DNA from: an uncultured Bacteroidales bacterium
Lineage (GTDB): Bacteria > Bacteroidota > Bacteroidia > Bacteroidales > Paludibacteraceae
DNA: 54,720 nt
Assembly: GCA_900317345.1 (NCBI GenBank)
Contig: ONGK01000007.1
Coordinates: forward strand, 1-54,720
Direction: 5' to 3'
Shown here: positions 4,657-45,914 of the stretch, piece after piece
How positions within the stretch are numbered: position 1 is the first letter of the stretch
How the letters are laid out: the number at the start of each line of letters is the position of its first letter
Notes under the pieces: model-generated
What the model was told of the DNA's origin: nothing
The model's input: the letters and a program-made list of their open reading frames with translations, nothing else
Database searches by the model: none
Made by a program: the position numbers and the translations under genes

Positions 4657-4728
4657 AAAAAAAAAAGCAGGTTGTCTCCCGACAACCCAATCTTTTCATT
4701 TAACCTTAAATCTAATACCATGAAAAAC
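4657..4728 (-). ncRNA. Candidate small RNA of about 72 nt
   Basis: On the minus strand a complete promoter at 4735-4766 is followed, about 70 bases on, by a textbook intrinsic terminator: GGTTGTC and GACAACC stems around a GGGA loop (4670-4687), then TGC and ten T residues (4657-4666). No open reading frame of useful length lies between. The body contains GGTATTAGATTTAAGGTTAA, which is single-stranded by eye. The opposite strand reads like a Bacteroidales translation start, but encodes only 13 codons. Rfam has a Bacteroidales-1 family delimited in a similar way by promoter and terminator; I cannot confirm membership. It could also be an attenuated leader. Confidence 0.6.
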
Positions 4729-4734
4729 ACGGTG

Positions 4735-9131: not shown

Positions 9132-9155
9132 CTTTGAGCAGCTTTAGCTGCGGTC
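9132..9155. repeat. Palindromic element, intergenic copy A
   Basis: CTTTGAGCAGCTTTAGCTGCGGTC: GCAGC pairs with GCTGC. It is one copy of the element described for 10560, 10795, 11838, 12279 and 45325, and lies between mutS and the receptor gene. Confidence 0.7.
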
Positions 9156-9181
9156 CATTGTCCATTGTCCATTGTCCATTG
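9154..9181. repeat. Seven-bp tandem repeat, four copies
   Basis: TCCATTG repeated four times without error, ending one base before the stop codon of the receptor gene. It abuts palindromic copy A. Confidence 0.85.
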
Positions 9182-11743
9182 TCACCTTAGGTCCACTGTA
9201 ATCTTCAGGTTATACCGTCTTCCGGTTAGGTAATTCGGGCTTGCCCATTGTTGTCCGTACGCGTCCGCCACCCAGAAATACGAGTTCACGTTGCGCCAGC
9301 CCACCAGGTTGAAAACCTCGAATTGTATTGCCCACTGCTTCACATGCTTGGCGCTCGGCGCGCGCATGAATTTGGTTGTCTTCTCGTTGAAGATATAGGT
9401 GGCGCCTAAATCAATGCGTTTGTAGGTCGGCATACGGCCCCATGCCTCGTTGTTGCGCGGAGCGTAGAAGGGCTGGCCTTCCGCAAACTGCATCTTCAGG
9501 TGAAATTTCAACTGCGGCAACTGCGGCAGGTAGTCTTGGAACAGCATTGAGAAGTTCCATCGCTGCTCATTCGGGCTCGGAATCCATAGATTCGAACCGA
9601 TGAAGCGCTGACGTGCCACCATTGTGCTGAACGAAATCCAACTGTCCGCACCGGGCACTAATTCGCCGTAAAGCTTCAGGTCCAAACCGCCGGCATAGCC
9701 ATGCGAGTCATTCTTTCCTGAATACCGAACCCGCACATTATCAACGGTATAGCTCTCCATTCGGTCGATATATTTGTAGTAACCCTCTGCCGTCAGTTTG
9801 AATGGACGACCCCATGCGCGGAAATAATAGTCGCCGCCGAGCACCACATGCACAGACCGTTGCGCCCGCAGATCCTTGTTCAGCCGGATACGCGTTACGC
9901 CTAACGCGTCCGTCACCGTGTCGCGCAACTCTTTGTAGAACGGAGCCTGATAATACAGACCGGTCGCCAAGCGGAAACACACATCGCGTTTCCAGCCCGG
10001 AATCCATTCGATGCTCGCGCGCGGAGAAGGCAGCACTTCGTTGTTCCAGCTCCACCACTGCAATCTGCCGCCTACGGTTAGAATCCACTGCCCCGCCTTT
10101 GTGTTCCATTTATGCTCGTTCTGGATGTAGGCTTGCAATCGTCCGGTCTTCATTTCGCTAAAACCCCGCAGGCTGTAAAACAGCTCCATCGAGCTTCCGT
10201 CATTGGGCAGCGAATAGCCGGCACTGTCGCGCCATTCCCATTCGGATATTTGGTCTTTTATCAGCTCAGCCTGTCCGCTCACACCCCAATAGAGTGTGTT
10301 GCTCCCGCTTTTCCACGAGCCGTTATGCGCTAAGGTGATGACGCCCGCCTCAAGGCTGTTTCGCGCGTGCTGGTGGTATAGACCGGTGCCTAACACATCG
10401 GTCTGGCCGCTCATCGGGTCCACTTGTTCGCCACTTCGGCTGGAACTGTTCTGACCCGCCGGAGCATTGGAGAGCACGTATTCGCCGGTGATGTCGAAGT
10501 TCTCCCGCTCGTTGGTATAGAATCCGCTTGCGTCAAACCCAATACTGATTTTGTCGTCGCTTTGAGCGGTTTCGCCGCGGTCTTTTGTCTTTCTACGTTC
10601 TACTGTATATTCTCCCTTTGCGCTCAGTGCTGCAAAAGCCGTCAGGAACTTGTCTTTCTCCTGGCCTTCATAATAAATACTCAGGTGTTTGGCGTTCTGC
10701 CCGCCGAAACTCTCACTCAGGCTGTCCGGCTGAAAACGATAGTCGTTCTGACTCACATTACCCAAAAACGACATTGACCACTGCCCCTTGTCGCTTTGAG
10801 CGGCTTCGCCGCGGTCTTTCGACTTTCTACTTTGTACTTTCCACGTGATAAACGTCTGATAATCAATATATGTCGGCTGATAATTGCCTGCGGTGTTCAA
10901 CCCGCCTAACATATACTTACTGGTCTTGTAGCGCAGACCGTGCATCATCGAATAGGTGCTGTCGCCGTGCCCCACATAGAGTTGTGCGCCAAGCAGACTG
11001 GCACTCAGACTTGCCTCAAAGGTCTGCGGACGCTTGTAGGTGATGTCCAAAACCGATGACATCTTATCGCCGTATTTCGCGCTAAAGCCGCCGGCAGAGA
11101 AACTCACGTTCTCCACCATCTCCGGGTTTACAAAACTCAGTCCTTCCTGTTGCCCGCTGCGGATGAGCAGAGGCCGGTGTACCTCTATGCCGTTCACATA
11201 TACCGAGTTCTCGTCGAACGAACCGCCGCGCACGTTGTACTGGCTGCTCAGCTCGTTGGTCTGACTCACGCCGGCAAAGGTAATCAGCAGACTCTCGATG
11301 CTGCCGCCTGTCGCATCCGGCATGACGCGCGTGGTGCCGGCGTCTATCTGGTCCATCGTACCCTGCGTATGTTTGATGCCGCGCACTTCTATCTCCGTCA
11401 GCATCTGTTCGTCTGTCAGCATCTGCACATTGATGTTGAGCACCTCGCGCAGGTCTATAATACGTTGCTGCACCGTGGTATAGCCGATCATCGAGAAATG
11501 CAGCACCACGGTATCTGCTTCATCCAGCAGCAGCTCATAATATCCGTTTTTGTTGGTTGATGTACCGCCTAATAACTGCTTGTCATCTTGATTGCTCGTC
11601 CATGCCGCCACGTTCGCCAATTCGATTCCCACATTGTCCTGGTCCACCACGTACCCATATACGCGTGCCGTGCGCGCGTACAAAGAAAACGTGCTCAAAA
11701 AGAGCAAGCCCCACAAATGTACTATTTTTAAGATTTTACTCAT
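9182..11743 (-). CDS. TonB-dependent receptor-like outer membrane protein
   Basis: An 853-residue protein with a signal peptide (about residues 1-23). Residues 24-110 form a carboxypeptidase-like regulatory domain (VYGYVVDQDNVGIELANVA). A plug domain follows, with QYNVRGGSFDENSVYVNGIE and the glycine-rich SAGGFSAKYGDKMSSVLDI. The rest is beta-barrel and ends in aromatic-rich strands. It should import a ligand across the outer membrane using TonB energy; the ligand is unknown and no SusD partner is adjacent. Two in-frame copies of the palindromic element, at about residues 302-316 and 380-394, add RKSKDRGEAAQS and RKTKDRGETAQS in loops between strands. The first codons (MSKILKIV) lie within a repeated flank described in the findings. 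Confidence 0.85.
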   Translation of the reverse strand: MSKILKIVHLWGLLFLSTFSLYARTARVYGYVVDQDNVGIELANVAAWTSNQDDKQLLGGTSTNKNGYYELLLDEADTVVLHFSMIGYTTVQQRIIDLREVLNINVQMLTDEQMLTEIEVRGIKHTQGTMDQIDAGTTRVMPDATGGSIESLLITFAGVSQTNELSSQYNVRGGSFDENSVYVNGIEVHRPLLIRSGQQEGLSFVNPEMVENVSFSAGGFSAKYGDKMSSVLDITYKRPQTFEASLSASLLGAQLYVGHGDSTYSMMHGLRYKTSKYMLGGLNTAGNYQPTYIDYQTFITWKVQSRKSKDRGEAAQSDKGQWSMSFLGNVSQNDYRFQPDSLSESFGGQNAKHLSIYYEGQEKDKFLTAFAALSAKGEYTVERRKTKDRGETAQSDDKISIGFDASGFYTNERENFDITGEYVLSNAPAGQNSSSRSGEQVDPMSGQTDVLGTGLYHQHARNSLEAGVITLAHNGSWKSGSNTLYWGVSGQAELIKDQISEWEWRDSAGYSLPNDGSSMELFYSLRGFSEMKTGRLQAYIQNEHKWNTKAGQWILTVGGRLQWWSWNNEVLPSPRASIEWIPGWKRDVCFRLATGLYYQAPFYKELRDTVTDALGVTRIRLNKDLRAQRSVHVVLGGDYYFRAWGRPFKLTAEGYYKYIDRMESYTVDNVRVRYSGKNDSHGYAGGLDLKLYGELVPGADSWISFSTMVARQRFIGSNLWIPSPNEQRWNFSMLFQDYLPQLPQLKFHLKMQFAEGQPFYAPRNNEAWGRMPTYKRIDLGATYIFNEKTTKFMRAPSAKHVKQWAIQFEVFNLVGWRNVNSYFWVADAYGQQWASPNYLTGRRYNLKITVDLR
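10560..10603. repeat. Palindromic element, in-frame copy B in the receptor gene
   Basis: TTTGAGCGGTTTCGCCGCGG and then TCTTTTGTCTTTCTACG. The stem is GCGGT with GCCGC. Read in the gene it encodes RRKTKDRGETAQSD. The surrounding sequence is ordinary barrel strands, so this looks like an insertion that kept the frame. Confidence 0.8.
10795..10838. repeat. Palindromic element, in-frame copy C in the receptor gene
   Basis: TTTGAGCGGCTTCGCCGCGG and then TCTTTCGACTTTCTAC. The stem is GCGGC with GCCGC. It encodes SRKSKDRGEAAQSD, between the strand FITWKV and the strand QWSMSFLGNVS, which are adjacent strands in related receptors. Confidence 0.8.
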
Positions 11744-11750
11744 TTATACG

Positions 11751-11805
11751 TGCTCGGTATCATCTCGGACTCTTCTCGTAGGCAATTCGTACTCATTACC
11801 TATGC
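11751..11805. repeat. Array of five 11-bp units upstream of the receptor gene
   Basis: Units TGCTCGGTATC, ATCTCGGACTC, TTCTCGTAGGC, AATTCGTACTC and ATTACCTATGC follow each other with no gaps. The array is 8 to 62 bases upstream of the receptor start. The same array in the same order, on the other strand, occurs at 28627-28681. No standard promoter is visible here. Confidence 0.75.
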
Positions 11806-11837
11806 ACAAAAATGTACTATTTTTAAGATCTAATATC

Positions 11838-11900
11838 TTTGAGCGAAGCGTTCTTTCTACTTTGAGCGCAGCGGTCTTTATTCTTTGAGCGAAGCGTTCA
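11838..11900. repeat. Palindromic elements, cluster D at the engB 3' end
   Basis: Three short versions in a row: CTTTGAGCGAAGCGTTC, CTTTGAGCGCAGCGGTC and CTTTGAGCGAAGCGTTC. The third forms the last codons and stop region of engB, which therefore ends ASLKE. Confidence 0.7.
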
Positions 11901-12516
11901 GTTCTTCAATGTAAGCCACCAGCTCTTCTCCTCCCAACCCGGTCTCTGAACTTGTCACAAATACCGGCGGTAGCTCTTCCCATTCTTCTAACAGCCGCGT
12001 TTTGTATGCCTCCACATTCTCGCGCAACCGCACTTTGCCCAACTTATCGCCTTTGGTAAACACTATCGCAAAGGGCACGCCGTTCTCGCCTAACCAGTTG
12101 ATGAACTCCAAGTCTATCTTCTGCGGCTCGTGACGGCAATCGACCAGCACAAACAGGCAAACCAACTGTTCTCGCAGCAAGCAATACCGCTCAATCATCC
12201 GCTTTAGCGCTTCCCGCTGTTTCTGTCCTGCCTGTGCATACCCATATCCCGGCAAATCCACCAAATGCCACTCTTGGCTTTGAGCGACAGCGTCGCGGTC
12301 TTTTGTCTTTCTACTTTCTACTAAAAAATGATTTATCAGCAGTGTCTTTCCGGGTTTCTGACTTGTCTTGGCGAGCTTCGGGTTATGGCACAGCATATTA
12401 ATGAGGCTGGATTTCCCCACGTTACTTCGCCCGATGAACGCATATTCCGGCAGCCCGCTCTGCGGACAATCCTTCACATCCGGACTAGAGATGATATATT
12501 GTGCGTTTTTTATCAT
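11878..12516 (-). CDS. engB: Ribosome biogenesis GTP-binding protein EngB (YsxC/YihA)
   Basis: A 212-residue GTPase involved in late 50S assembly. G1 is GRSNVGKS (residues 29-36), G2 is the Thr of [10 protein letters not shown]3 is DLPGYGYA (from 87), G4 is FTKGDKL and G5 is [10 protein letters not shown] start at ATG 12516 because the promoter -7 box (12534-12541) lies inside the longer reading frame from 12564. Residues 67-81 ([15 protein letters not shown]) are an insertion encoded by palindromic copy E; relatives have only about two residues between LINHFLV and WHLVDLPG. The insertion is in the beta2-beta3 turn and leaves the GTPase motifs intact. Confidence 0.93.
12279..12321. repeat. 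Palindromic element, in-frame copy E in engB
   Basis: TTTGAGCGACAGCGTCGCGG and then TCTTTTGTCTTTCTAC. The stem is GCGAC with GTCGC, a different pair set from copies A-C, so both arms changed together. It encodes [14 protein letters not shown]. Confidence 0.8.
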
Positions 12517-15758: not shown

Positions 15759-15786
15759 AAAAAAGCGACCTTTCAGCCGCTTTTTT
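15759..15786. terminator. Bidirectional terminator after cstA
   Basis: AAAAAAGCG and CGCTTTTTT flank a 10-base loop, so a T-run follows the hairpin on both strands. It ends cstA transcription on the minus strand. Confidence 0.75.
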
Positions 15787-15852
15787 CACTCATTCACTCA
15801 CTCATTCACTCATTCACTCATTCATTCATTCATTCATTCATTCATTCATTCC
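15787..15852. repeat. Tetranucleotide repeat at the cstA stop codon
   Basis: About 66 bases of CATT/CACT units on the plus strand, pure CATT at the cstA end. On the minus strand the cstA stop TGA is formed by the first (GAAT)n unit. Confidence 0.85.
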
Positions 15853-17832: not shown

Positions 17833-17866
17833 AAAAAATGAAAAAAAGCCAAATCCTCCCTCAATA

Positions 17867-18160
17867 CCGATTTGCGGTATGAAGGCCGTAGCGCAACCCA
17901 ACAACAATGGTAGTAGTTGTGGTTAATGTACATAGTTACGGATTCGAGCATTGCCGCAGGCAATAATCGTTCGAACGAAGTGAGATAAGAACCCAGACCG
18001 ATCTGCGGTTTGAATGCCGTAGCGCGACCTAACAACAATGGAAGCCGTTGTAGTTAATGTACATAGTTTCGGATTCGAGCATTGCCGTAGGCAATAATCG
18101 TTCGAACGAAGTGAGATAAGAACCCAGACCGGTTTGCGGTTTGAAGGCCGTAGCGCCTTC
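17867..18160. repeat. 131-bp tandem repeat, two copies and a partial third
   Basis: Copies begin at 17867, 17998 and 18129, each with CCG and TTGCGGT or CTGCGGT. Each full copy contains GAGCATTGCC-x-AGGCAATAATCG-like palindromes and CGTTCGAACG. The two full copies differ at scattered sites only. Each also contains ACGGATTCGA, which is identical to the T-arm stretch of the adjacent tRNA-Val. No gene or promoter is visible in it. Confidence 0.8.
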
Positions 18161-45324: not shown

Positions 45325-45384
45325 CTTTTGTCTTTGAGCAGCTTTGCTGCGGTCTTTTGTCTTTTGTCTTTGAGCGAAGCGGTC
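45325..45384. repeat. Palindromic elements, cluster F between groES and groEL
   Basis: CTTTGAGCAGCTTTGCTGCG followed by GTCTTTTGTC, then a short version CTTTGAGCGAAGCGGTC. The stem of the first is GCAGC with GCTGC. The flanks repeat TCTTTTGTC, as in copies B and E. Confidence 0.75.
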
Positions 45385-45385
45385 C

Positions 45386-45661
45386 TTATTTTACAATTGC
45401 CAAAACGTCACTCTGACGCATAATCAGGTATTTCTCGCCGTCCAGTTCAAGTTCTGTACCGGCATATTTGCCGTAGAGCACTTGATCGCCGGCTTTGAGC
45501 ACCATTGCTTCGTCTTTCGTTCCCTCACCTGCTGCGAGTACTTCGCCGCGCAGCGGTTTCTCTTTTGCGCTGTCCGGAATAATGATTCCGCCTACTGTCT
45601 TTTCTTCTGCAGCCGCCGGCTTGATAAGCACGCGGTCTGCTAACGGTTGAATTTTTGCCAT
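45386..45661 (-). CDS. groS: 10 kDa chaperonin GroES
   Basis: A 91-residue co-chaperonin. It has [20 protein letters not shown] at the start, the mobile loop with [13 protein letters not shown], and [20 protein letters not shown] near the end. It caps the GroEL ring. No CIRCE inverted repeat and no TAnnTTTG box are visible upstream, so the promoter and its heat regulation are unclear. The 5' region holds palindromes with ATCATTC repeats. Confidence 0.97.
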
Positions 45662-45688: not shown

Positions 45689-45752
45689 CCATCATTCTAT
45701 CATTCGGCAGCTCTGCTTCCATCATTCAGCAAGCTTTGCTTGCATCATTCAT
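45689..45752. repeat. ATCATTC repeats separated by small palindromes
   Basis: ATCATTC or TATCATTC occurs at 45690, 45698, 45721 and 45744. Between the later copies lie GGCAGCTCTGCTTCC and AGCAAGCTTTGCTTGC, the second a perfect GCAAGC/GCTTGC hairpin. The layout differs from the TTTGAGC element but follows the same idea. The rest of 45753-45826 holds only a CTGCCATTTTGGCAG palindrome at 45787-45801. Confidence 0.6.
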
Positions 45753-45826: not shown

Positions 45827-45914
45827 TCTCTGTAAAGCACTACAAACTTCGTGGGAAACTATAAACCTCATATAAAGCTCATATAAACCTCATTCAAAGC
45901 TCATATAAACTAAA
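45827..45914. repeat. Array of eight 11-bp units between groES and the AddA-like gene
   Basis: Units run in phase from TCTCTGTAAAG through CACTACAAACT and TCGTGGGAAAC to TATAAACCTCA, TATAAAGCTCA, TATAAACCTCA, TTCAAAGCTCA and TATAAACTAAA. The last five are clearly repeated; the first three are degenerate but keep the AA at positions 8 to 9. Confidence 0.7.

Follow-up and report, generated by a model that had tools for sequence, protein, structure and literature searches.

A very small hairpin repeat set in heptamer arrays, between genes and in frame within proteins of an uncultured Bacteroidales bacterium

The window analyzed here is a stretch of 54,720 nucleotides (positions 1 to 54,720, forward strand, of contig ONGK01000007.1, assembly GCA_900317345.1) from an uncultured bacterium of the Bacteroidales, family Paludibacteraceae. 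It contains a short palindromic word which lies between genes and also in frame within two unrelated proteins, the GTPase EngB and a TonB-linked receptor. In-frame palindromic repeats in bacterial proteins are best known from Rickettsia. What is seen here is a dispersed repeat of very small size, namely a hairpin word, mostly of 16 to 24 bases (TTTGAGC-arm-loop-arm-GCGGTC), sitting in arrays of TTTNNNC heptamers. Without an evident dedicated enzyme, the question becomes how such small words spread.

Based on the pattern TTTGAGC(N1-20)GCGGTC, 61 copies were identified in the bacterium's own genome (1.96 Mb, 77 contigs, 96% complete), a count that leaves out variants like GCGTTC, of which the window has two, and TTTCAGC, while the reversed control pattern gave none; the original prediction had looked for many copies genome-wide. 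The spacer between TTTGAGC and GCGGTC was 3 bases in 36 copies, 4 in seven, 9 to 11 in 16, and 5 and 16 in one each. Copies with the 3-base spacer have the form GC-NNN-GC, in which NNN was GCA or GAA in 27. Among the 16 long-spacer copies, 12 have three to four extra stem pairs and the remaining four have two, two, one and none. Their 5' arms are of ten distinct kinds with pairing still kept, and Watson-Crick pairs were found at 48 of 54 positions in the variable arms, whereas 2000 shuffles of the arms gave 34 on average and never more than 44.

A TTTNNNC heptamer adjoins 58 of the 61 copies (directly left in 48 and directly right in 38, with about 0.3 expected on one side), the commonest being TTTCTAC and TTTTGTC. 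Hairpin and heptamers also recur together, since identical composites were found at unrelated loci: 42 bases in contigs C32 and C61, 37 bases in C28 and C55, and 33 bases in the window (C46) and C22. The longest shared pair, 47 bases in C28 and C40, was not counted as evidence because it lies in two near-identical genes, one of them at a contig end. The palindrome originally described stands as a hairpin with covarying arms, but it is not a lone element, as the hairpin word sits inside heptamer arrays.

In the window, the relaxed pattern TTTGAGC N2-16 GCGGTC gave seven matches where 0.04 were expected from shuffles, and CTTTGAGC alone occurred 17 times compared with 2.2 in shuffles. All copies claimed for the window were found, with small shifts in coordinates, at 9132-9155, 10560-10582, 10794-10816, 11860-11876, 12278-12300, 45332-45354 and 45368-45384; the element given at 45325 exists but actually occupies 45332-45354. 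The repeat features and their host genes are as follows.

9132..9155, minus strand: hairpin word with long stem, intergenic, between two minus-strand genes; the sense strand reads GACCGC..GCTCAAAG
9153..9183, minus strand: heptamer array (GTCCATT), 4.4 copies, fused to the hairpin word
9182..11743, minus strand: host gene, 853-residue TonB-dependent receptor-like protein (Plug and CarboxypepD_reg-like domains)
10560..10603, minus strand: hairpin word with heptamers TTTTGTC TTTCTAC GTTCTAC, in frame in the TonB-linked receptor; peptide VERRKTKDRGETAQSD
10794..10837, minus strand: hairpin word with heptamers TTTCGAC TTTCTAC TTTGTAC, in frame in the same receptor; peptide KVQSRKSKDRGEAAQSDKG
11837..11899, minus strand: three short hairpin words with heptamers, at and past the end of engB; the third (11883-11899) supplies C-terminal residues of EngB
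11878..12516, minus strand: host gene, EngB (YihA/YsxC) GTPase
12278..12321, minus strand: hairpin word with heptamers TTTTGTC TTTCTAC TTTCTAC, in frame in engB; 16-residue peptide between two beta-strands
45332..45354, minus strand: hairpin word with long stem, between a 91-residue and a 542-residue open reading frame (ORF)
45352..45371, minus strand: heptamer array (GTCTTTT), 2.9 copies, bridging two hairpin words
45368..45384, minus strand: hairpin word with short stem (GC GAA GC), 1 base from the upstream stop codon

Two of the three short units at 11837-11899 terminate in GCGTTC rather than GCGGTC. This stretch had been placed between genes (at 11838), but it is not entirely intergenic, as the third unit encodes the last residues of EngB (NASLKE). 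The two ORFs that flank 45332-45354 are presumably GroES- and GroEL-like, judged by eye. The three coding copies do share strand and frame in the window, with peptides SRKSKDRGEAAQS, RRKTKDRGETAQS and one of 13 residues, and the covariation of the stem arms was borne out, the copy at 10560 having one T.G position (GGT/GCC). An Rfam search of the window matched three tRNAs and a FopS RNA, and gave no match at gathering score at any hairpin copy. The FopS match, to a Bacteroidetes small RNA, is at 4658-4730 with 75.7 bits.

Genome-wide, a simple ORF caller placed 37 of the 61 copies inside ORFs and 24 between them. The ORF copies were in sense orientation in 28 cases and antisense in nine, and among the coding copies each of the three sense frames is represented (DRFAQSRK, KTASLKDK, RPLRSK), the two copies in RsmH being in two different frames. 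By direct reading, the sense word is free of stops in every frame. The single frame and strand seen in the window are accordingly an accident of the window and do not extend to the genome, where all three sense frames and the antisense strand are in use.

Recognizable proteins contain 25 of the 61 copies by manual classing: EngB, the receptor (two), a ManC-like protein, an HD-domain protein (two, with a third in a partial near-duplicate), BirA, a GltD-like protein, HypB (two), GH149 (past the end of the profile match), an MBL-fold-like protein, IspE, LpxB, an SDR oxidoreductase, MurE, RsmH (two), TsaB (two), LigA, RadA and RimO (two), several of the family matches (ManC-like, GH149, MBL-fold, HD) being below curated cut-offs or to a domain only. 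The HD-domain gene occurs in near-identical form at the end of contig C28 (L130:7082-7525) and in C40 (L190:1081-2208), each with the repeat word, and is either a duplicate or a strain variant within the bin. Two antisense copies form what appear by eye to be signal-peptide-like starts, MKKVFYLLSLSAAVFCLSSC at locus L189 and MKTTNMLLSLSVSGLLSLSAAFLTGC at L197. Ten ORF copies lie at doubtful starts, at ends, or in ORFs with no family match. In the housekeeping proteins, the in-frame copies occupy turns, linkers and tails. Heptamer arrays (TTTTGTC, TTTGTCC) also make up the hydrophobic core in starts that resemble signal peptides, for example MNRYFLSFVFCLLSFVCFAQ, at L156:2615-2650, L134:5935-5959, L140:17888-17911 and L144:11564-11592.

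Between genes, the strand reading GACCGC...GCTCAAA is the sense strand of the upstream gene in 23 of the 24 copies, the remaining one lying between divergent genes; 13 of the 24 start no more than 10 bases from the stop codon upstream, and the next gene follows at a median of 36 bases, although four close-neighbor pairs and one likely chance match (L198) among the 24 make the independent cases fewer. Such an arrangement could be read as a functional RNA or translation leader, with intergenic copies aiding expression of the next gene and coding copies as by-products. The co-direction with the upstream gene and the short distance to the next one fit this explanation, as does the proposal that TAACTGA heptamers of Beggiatoaceae act upstream of start codons (PMC4679880). 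The stem, however, is merely GC/GC around three bases in 36 of the 61 copies, 79 of 101 genomes of the genus have fewer than ten matches, the window copies are without an Rfam counterpart, and selection against the antisense orientation would by itself give an equal bias. A role as RNA or leader is thus quite unlikely. The orientation bias may come from plain selection, the sense strand being purine-rich, stop-free and hydrophilic and the other strand pyrimidine-rich and hydrophobic.

The coding copies were compared with the best PDB chain shown for each protein, and with two chains (1sul, 3pqc) in the case of EngB. The EngB insert residues have no counterpart in either chain. MurE and LigA each have extra residues at two sites, the second in LigA amounting to only about 8 residues net. 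The insert residues of RsmH are absent from its homologue, the alignment breaking at residues 57 and 81, and those of BirA and HypB likewise lack a counterpart. Homologues without the residues were found for all six of these proteins. In an AlphaFold2 model of EngB (mean predicted local distance difference test, pLDDT, 88.5), strands 61-69 and 80-87 flank the insert, and residues 71-80 have a mean pLDDT of 60; the insert is at the tip of a beta-hairpin in this model, in a low-confidence loop. All three coding copies of the window had been assigned to turns between beta-strands, which agrees with the model for EngB and, for the receptor, with sequence alignment only.

Going by titles, the nearest relatives by EngB are bins of uncultured Bacteroidales and of Paludibacteraceae, many with names that refer to ruminants or the rumen. 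The EngB segment exceeds 52 residues in 45 of 68 loci (L046-L113), and in loci titled as other genera or families (L114-L125) it is short, with 51 residues, in 11 of 12, the twelfth (L120) being unparsed; parsing left out L043 and L120. An ancestral peptide was rejected on these short outgroup loci together with the PDB homologues.

The longer EngB forms are of several kinds. Some have this hairpin with GTCGAAA or GTAGAAA heptamers, others have heptamers only (GTCGAAA, GTTGAGA, CAGCAAT, CTGAAAT, GTCGTTC, AATGGTA), and others have different palindromes (CCTCGGCGGAGG, CCCTCCC, CTGTAAGACCG), besides a few short or unclassed ones. On a tree of insert-free EngB DNA (75 rows, 576 columns), in which 26 of 72 inner branches are well supported and the bootstrap had not settled, the minimum number of changes was at least 34 for insert type, at least 15 for presence and at least nine for this hairpin. 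The sister loci L055 and L059 have unrelated heptamer arrays in EngB, and L051, L082 and L093, from one supported clade, have three unrelated inserts.

The same kind of mixture was seen by sequence alignment at both receptor turns in 68 matching loci, at the first MurE site (located in 10 of 30 loci, and together with the second site in 13 of 30 with other search motifs) and at the RsmH site (17 of 30 loci); a second RsmH stretch was located in five of 30. The second MurE site was located in all 30 loci, with an insert in 11 and a short form in 19. MurE and RsmH loci in which a site was not located were excluded from the site comparisons. Within one genome, the two MurE sites can be alike: at L277 they have 26 bases of the same degenerate heptamer order, and at L291 a 32-base palindrome. 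Relatives with no insert, which had been put forward as a check for EngB and the receptor, or with a varied one were found at the EngB, receptor, RsmH and MurE sites. The notion of one element that invaded once fails, because the same protein sites in relatives hold many unrelated repeat types.

Two further palindromes were noted at these sites. A near-identical double palindrome (TCCTCGGCGGAGGC..; named palB) is shared by four scattered lineages (L082, L087, L099, L101), in all of which it occupies the same turn of EngB. A C-rich palindrome (CCCTCCC..GGGAGGG), giving peptides like TSPQPSPQGRE, occurs in several genes: EngB of L062, L072 and L093, MurE of L278, L279, L287 and L291, and RsmH of L252. 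An assembly artefact is thought unlikely as the origin of the inserts, since bins produced by separate studies contain related ones (the insert peptide of EngB is identical in L053 and L080).

At least ten matches to the hairpin pattern were found in 22 of 101 genomes of the genus (own genome included), with a maximum of 72 (genome G033) and 0 to 4 for the reversed control. The 148 other genomes of the order had at most 7 matches, with up to 5 for the control, and the sole genome among them from another genus of the same family had none. High copy number is therefore confined, in the genomes sampled, to part of one genus. Period-7 arrays were found at 6.3 per 100 kb in the own genome (474 kb, with 16 kb reading N excluded), 8.3 in 20 genomes of the genus (400 kb) and 1.2 in 20 of other families (347 kb), compared with one array in 874 kb of second-order Markov sequence (0.11 per 100 kb). 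The own-genome stretches were picked for contigs carrying copies, which may bias their density upward; contigs of the 20 genus genomes were not so picked.

Period-11 arrays (GAACTATTGAC, TATGGGTATCC and others) form a second repeat class, which is intergenic (window 45860-45910; L131:5079-5121; L141:15589-15647) and has densities of 5.3 per 100 kb in the own genome, 3.5 in the genus sample and 0 in the 20 other families. Contig L165 (G000:C20, 17 kb) has words (TCAATCT, AACTCTTA) unlike the rest of the genome sample, and may be a contaminant or foreign DNA.

One hairpin word is dispersed through the genome and tied to heptamers, composites of the two are held in common by separate loci, and turnover at tolerant protein sites is rapid. 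It is somewhat more likely than not that these observations reflect a dispersed hairpin-in-heptamer repeat that is copied between arrays by replication or repair without a dedicated transposase and is then subject to purifying selection. New copies would arise when a short stretch is copied from one heptamer array to another during DNA replication or repair, by microhomology or slippage, and the palindromic arms would be maintained via template switching inside the hairpin; no dedicated transposase would be needed. Purifying selection would then retain those copies whose reading frame is open. The sense strand of GACCGCTTCGCTCAAAGACAAAAGAC, with no stop in any frame and hydrophilic residues, would be suited to loops, the antisense strand coding LLSLSEAV and the heptamers coding SFVLCPL would be suited to signal peptides, and the purine-rich sense strand would make a tolerable leader between genes.

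The dispersed hairpin, conserved flanks, variable palindromic arms and patchy copy number in the genus are also what a conventional non-autonomous mobile element would leave, either of the repetitive extragenic palindrome type (REP/REPIN) or a miniature inverted-repeat transposable element (MITE), its transposase being unfound, lost or of another family. Matches to the Y1_Tnp profile were present in five of 12 copy-rich genomes, which is in favor of this origin, but none was found in the own genome or in G033 (72 matches, 97% complete). A REP system driven by a REP-associated tyrosine transposase (RAYT) was rejected on this inconsistent presence of Y1_Tnp across copy-rich genomes. RVT_1, searched in 17 genomes, was found in three of the 12 copy-rich ones and in one of five without a hairpin match, and was found neither in the own genome nor in G033; an RNA intermediate was rejected as RVT_1 presence is inconsistent with copy number. 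Moreover, neither the GTAG nor the CGTC tag stands at the foot of the stem, although the pattern fixes the feet and misses variants with other ones, and the same protein sites house many unrelated insert types. AAAGAC flanks (EngB; L049 versus L075) can be read as a MITE-type target duplication, but are indistinguishable from the heptamer array itself. A conventional mobile element is accordingly doubtful. It is unlikely, too, that heptamer and hairpin words are written at many sites by a so far undescribed activity of DNA synthesis or repair in this lineage and provide a continuing source of new coding sequence (turns of essential enzymes, protein tails, whole signal-peptide cores), with word sets replaced by unrelated ones within a species group.

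Several points weigh against copying between arrays. No movement of the hairpin word was observed, and at least two of the 61 matches, L198 (16-base spacer) and L202 (unpaired), are likely due to chance. Among the coding copies, RadA showed no net insertion relative to its PDB homologue, and the LpxB alignment was diffuse and the insertion not settled. Inserts in EngB resembled their own 6-kb neighborhood no better than those of other species (23 of 45 exceeded the average for the others, p = 0.24), and in 11 of 13 pairs of MurE sites merely 4-12 bases were common to both. The palB motif occurs once in each of the four genomes with palB in EngB and is absent from six others, and the GTCGTTC array of L055 has no counterpart elsewhere in its genome or in nine others. 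Being single-copy, the palB and GTCGTTC inserts did not come out of a pool in which one word is repeated across the genome; they are compatible with local growth or with transfer between species. A transposase of a family other than the two searched, or one missing in the assembly, may also be at work. A genome-specific word pool behind every insert is not supported by the single-copy inserts, the neighborhood comparison and the MurE pairs. The mobility originally proposed follows by inference only, and the two other EngB insert types sought across whole genomes are single-copy there.

Local growth alone would have slippage expand the heptamers and template switching make hairpins independently at each site, with nothing moving. 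The lone GTCGTTC array is as expected from such growth, and heptamers are over-represented among bacterial simple repeats, for which slippage has been proposed as the cause (PMC4692102, PMC4679880). Against this, 61 hairpin words with the same flanks, and composites of 33-42 bases at unrelated loci, are hard to obtain independently. As a general account local growth is very unlikely, and for this hairpin it is already disfavored.

Turnover in EngB might instead be allele transfer, with loops exchanged between species by recombination (natural transformation). The near-identical palB insert in four scattered lineages, with a single copy per genome, would fit, and so would the palB pair L087/L099, in which identity is 0.90 in the 30-base flanks and 0.67 farther off. 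Near-minus-far identity, however, was 0.153 for palB, 0.132 for palC, 0.159 for palD, 0.130 for the hairpin and 0.061 for GTTGAGA, against 0.116 (standard deviation 0.053) in pairs of different type. Transfer with long flanks was not seen, since like inserts do not, on average, have flanks of unusual similarity at the 30-base scale, and allele transfer as a whole is very unlikely.

Whichever way the words spread, one ruminant-gut genus with many species has turns of EngB, MurE, RsmH and an outer-membrane receptor that are either empty or filled with unrelated words, which allows a direct count of gain, loss, replacement and tolerance. Repeat words that are usually intergenic are here also read within essential proteins, which gives a way to study the gain of new protein stretches, and heptamer-made signal-peptide cores suggest a route from simple repeats to new functional sequence.

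Other repeats were noted in the window. A 23-base unit, TTCCATCATTCAGCAAGCTCTGC, is present in 2.5 copies at 45695-45751 as a small repeat upstream of the ORF at 45386-45661. A tandem repeat with a 131-base unit (2.2 copies) is located at 17866-18156, and a TTCA tetranucleotide array (16.8 copies) at 15785-15851.

In the open-license literature, judged from titles and the beginnings of abstracts, no description of this repeat system in Bacteroidales was found, which is not proof of absence. The original statement that no such family is known in Bacteroidales was nevertheless too broad, as short repeats of both kinds are reported from Bacteroidetes, namely CGTC palindromes (PMC3733652) and TAACTGA heptamers, including those of Paludibacter (PMC4679880). 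Repeats of Porphyromonas gingivalis are the subject of PMC5771137 and PMC4596501.

The Rickettsia palindromic elements (RPE) are in-frame coding palindromes in unrelated protein genes (PMC10969869, PMC3733652), about 150 bp in length (PMC10969869). The likeness to RPE that was first suggested holds in that in-frame palindromic inserts lie in unrelated genes, are absent from homologues and form several families per genome. The core of the hairpin word, in contrast, is 16-24 bp in nearly all copies, which is outside the length of RPE; the word is set in heptamer arrays, it uses all three sense frames and the antisense strand, the corresponding sites of relatives hold unrelated repeats, and the host belongs to the Bacteroidales rather than the Alphaproteobacteria.

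GTAG and CGTC palindromes are intragenic in several bacteria, the CGTC type being found also in Bacteroidetes without a known transposase, and GTAG termini often supply the stop codon of the flanking ORF (PMC3733652). Like the present repeat they are short palindromes, mostly downstream of genes and in part intragenic, with termini that can give a stop codon. The foot of the hairpin word, however, is GGTC / TCAA with neither GTAG nor CGTC, a foot required by the search pattern, and its stems are of 2-6 bp compared with 5-13 bp (GTAG) and 8-9 bp (CGTC), so that only long copies reach the GTAG range.

Heptamer repeats are reported as GGGAATC in Xanthomonas (PMC4692102) and as TAACTGA in Beggiatoaceae, Cyanobacteria and five Bacteroidetes including Paludibacter, those of Beggiatoaceae being found for the most part immediately before start codons and in a single orientation (PMC4679880). 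Period-7 arrays are thus common to these systems and to the present one, Paludibacter with TAACTGA included. The own genome differs in having many words, their combination with a hairpin word and frequent in-frame coding copies.

The small dispersed repeats of cyanobacteria (Elhai 2008) are reportedly hairpins of about 21-27 bp with compensatory changes, often within tandem heptamers. By that description, the likeness is found here in a small hairpin whose arms change in a compensatory way (48 of 54 arm pairs) and a heptamer beside 58 of 61 copies, while the phylum is another one and the main feature of the hairpin word is its in-frame occupation of housekeeping proteins. The 2008 work is cited in PMC3116915. 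By analogy, the hairpin-in-heptamer repeat works like the Rickettsia palindromic elements and the cyanobacterial small dispersed repeats in heptamers.

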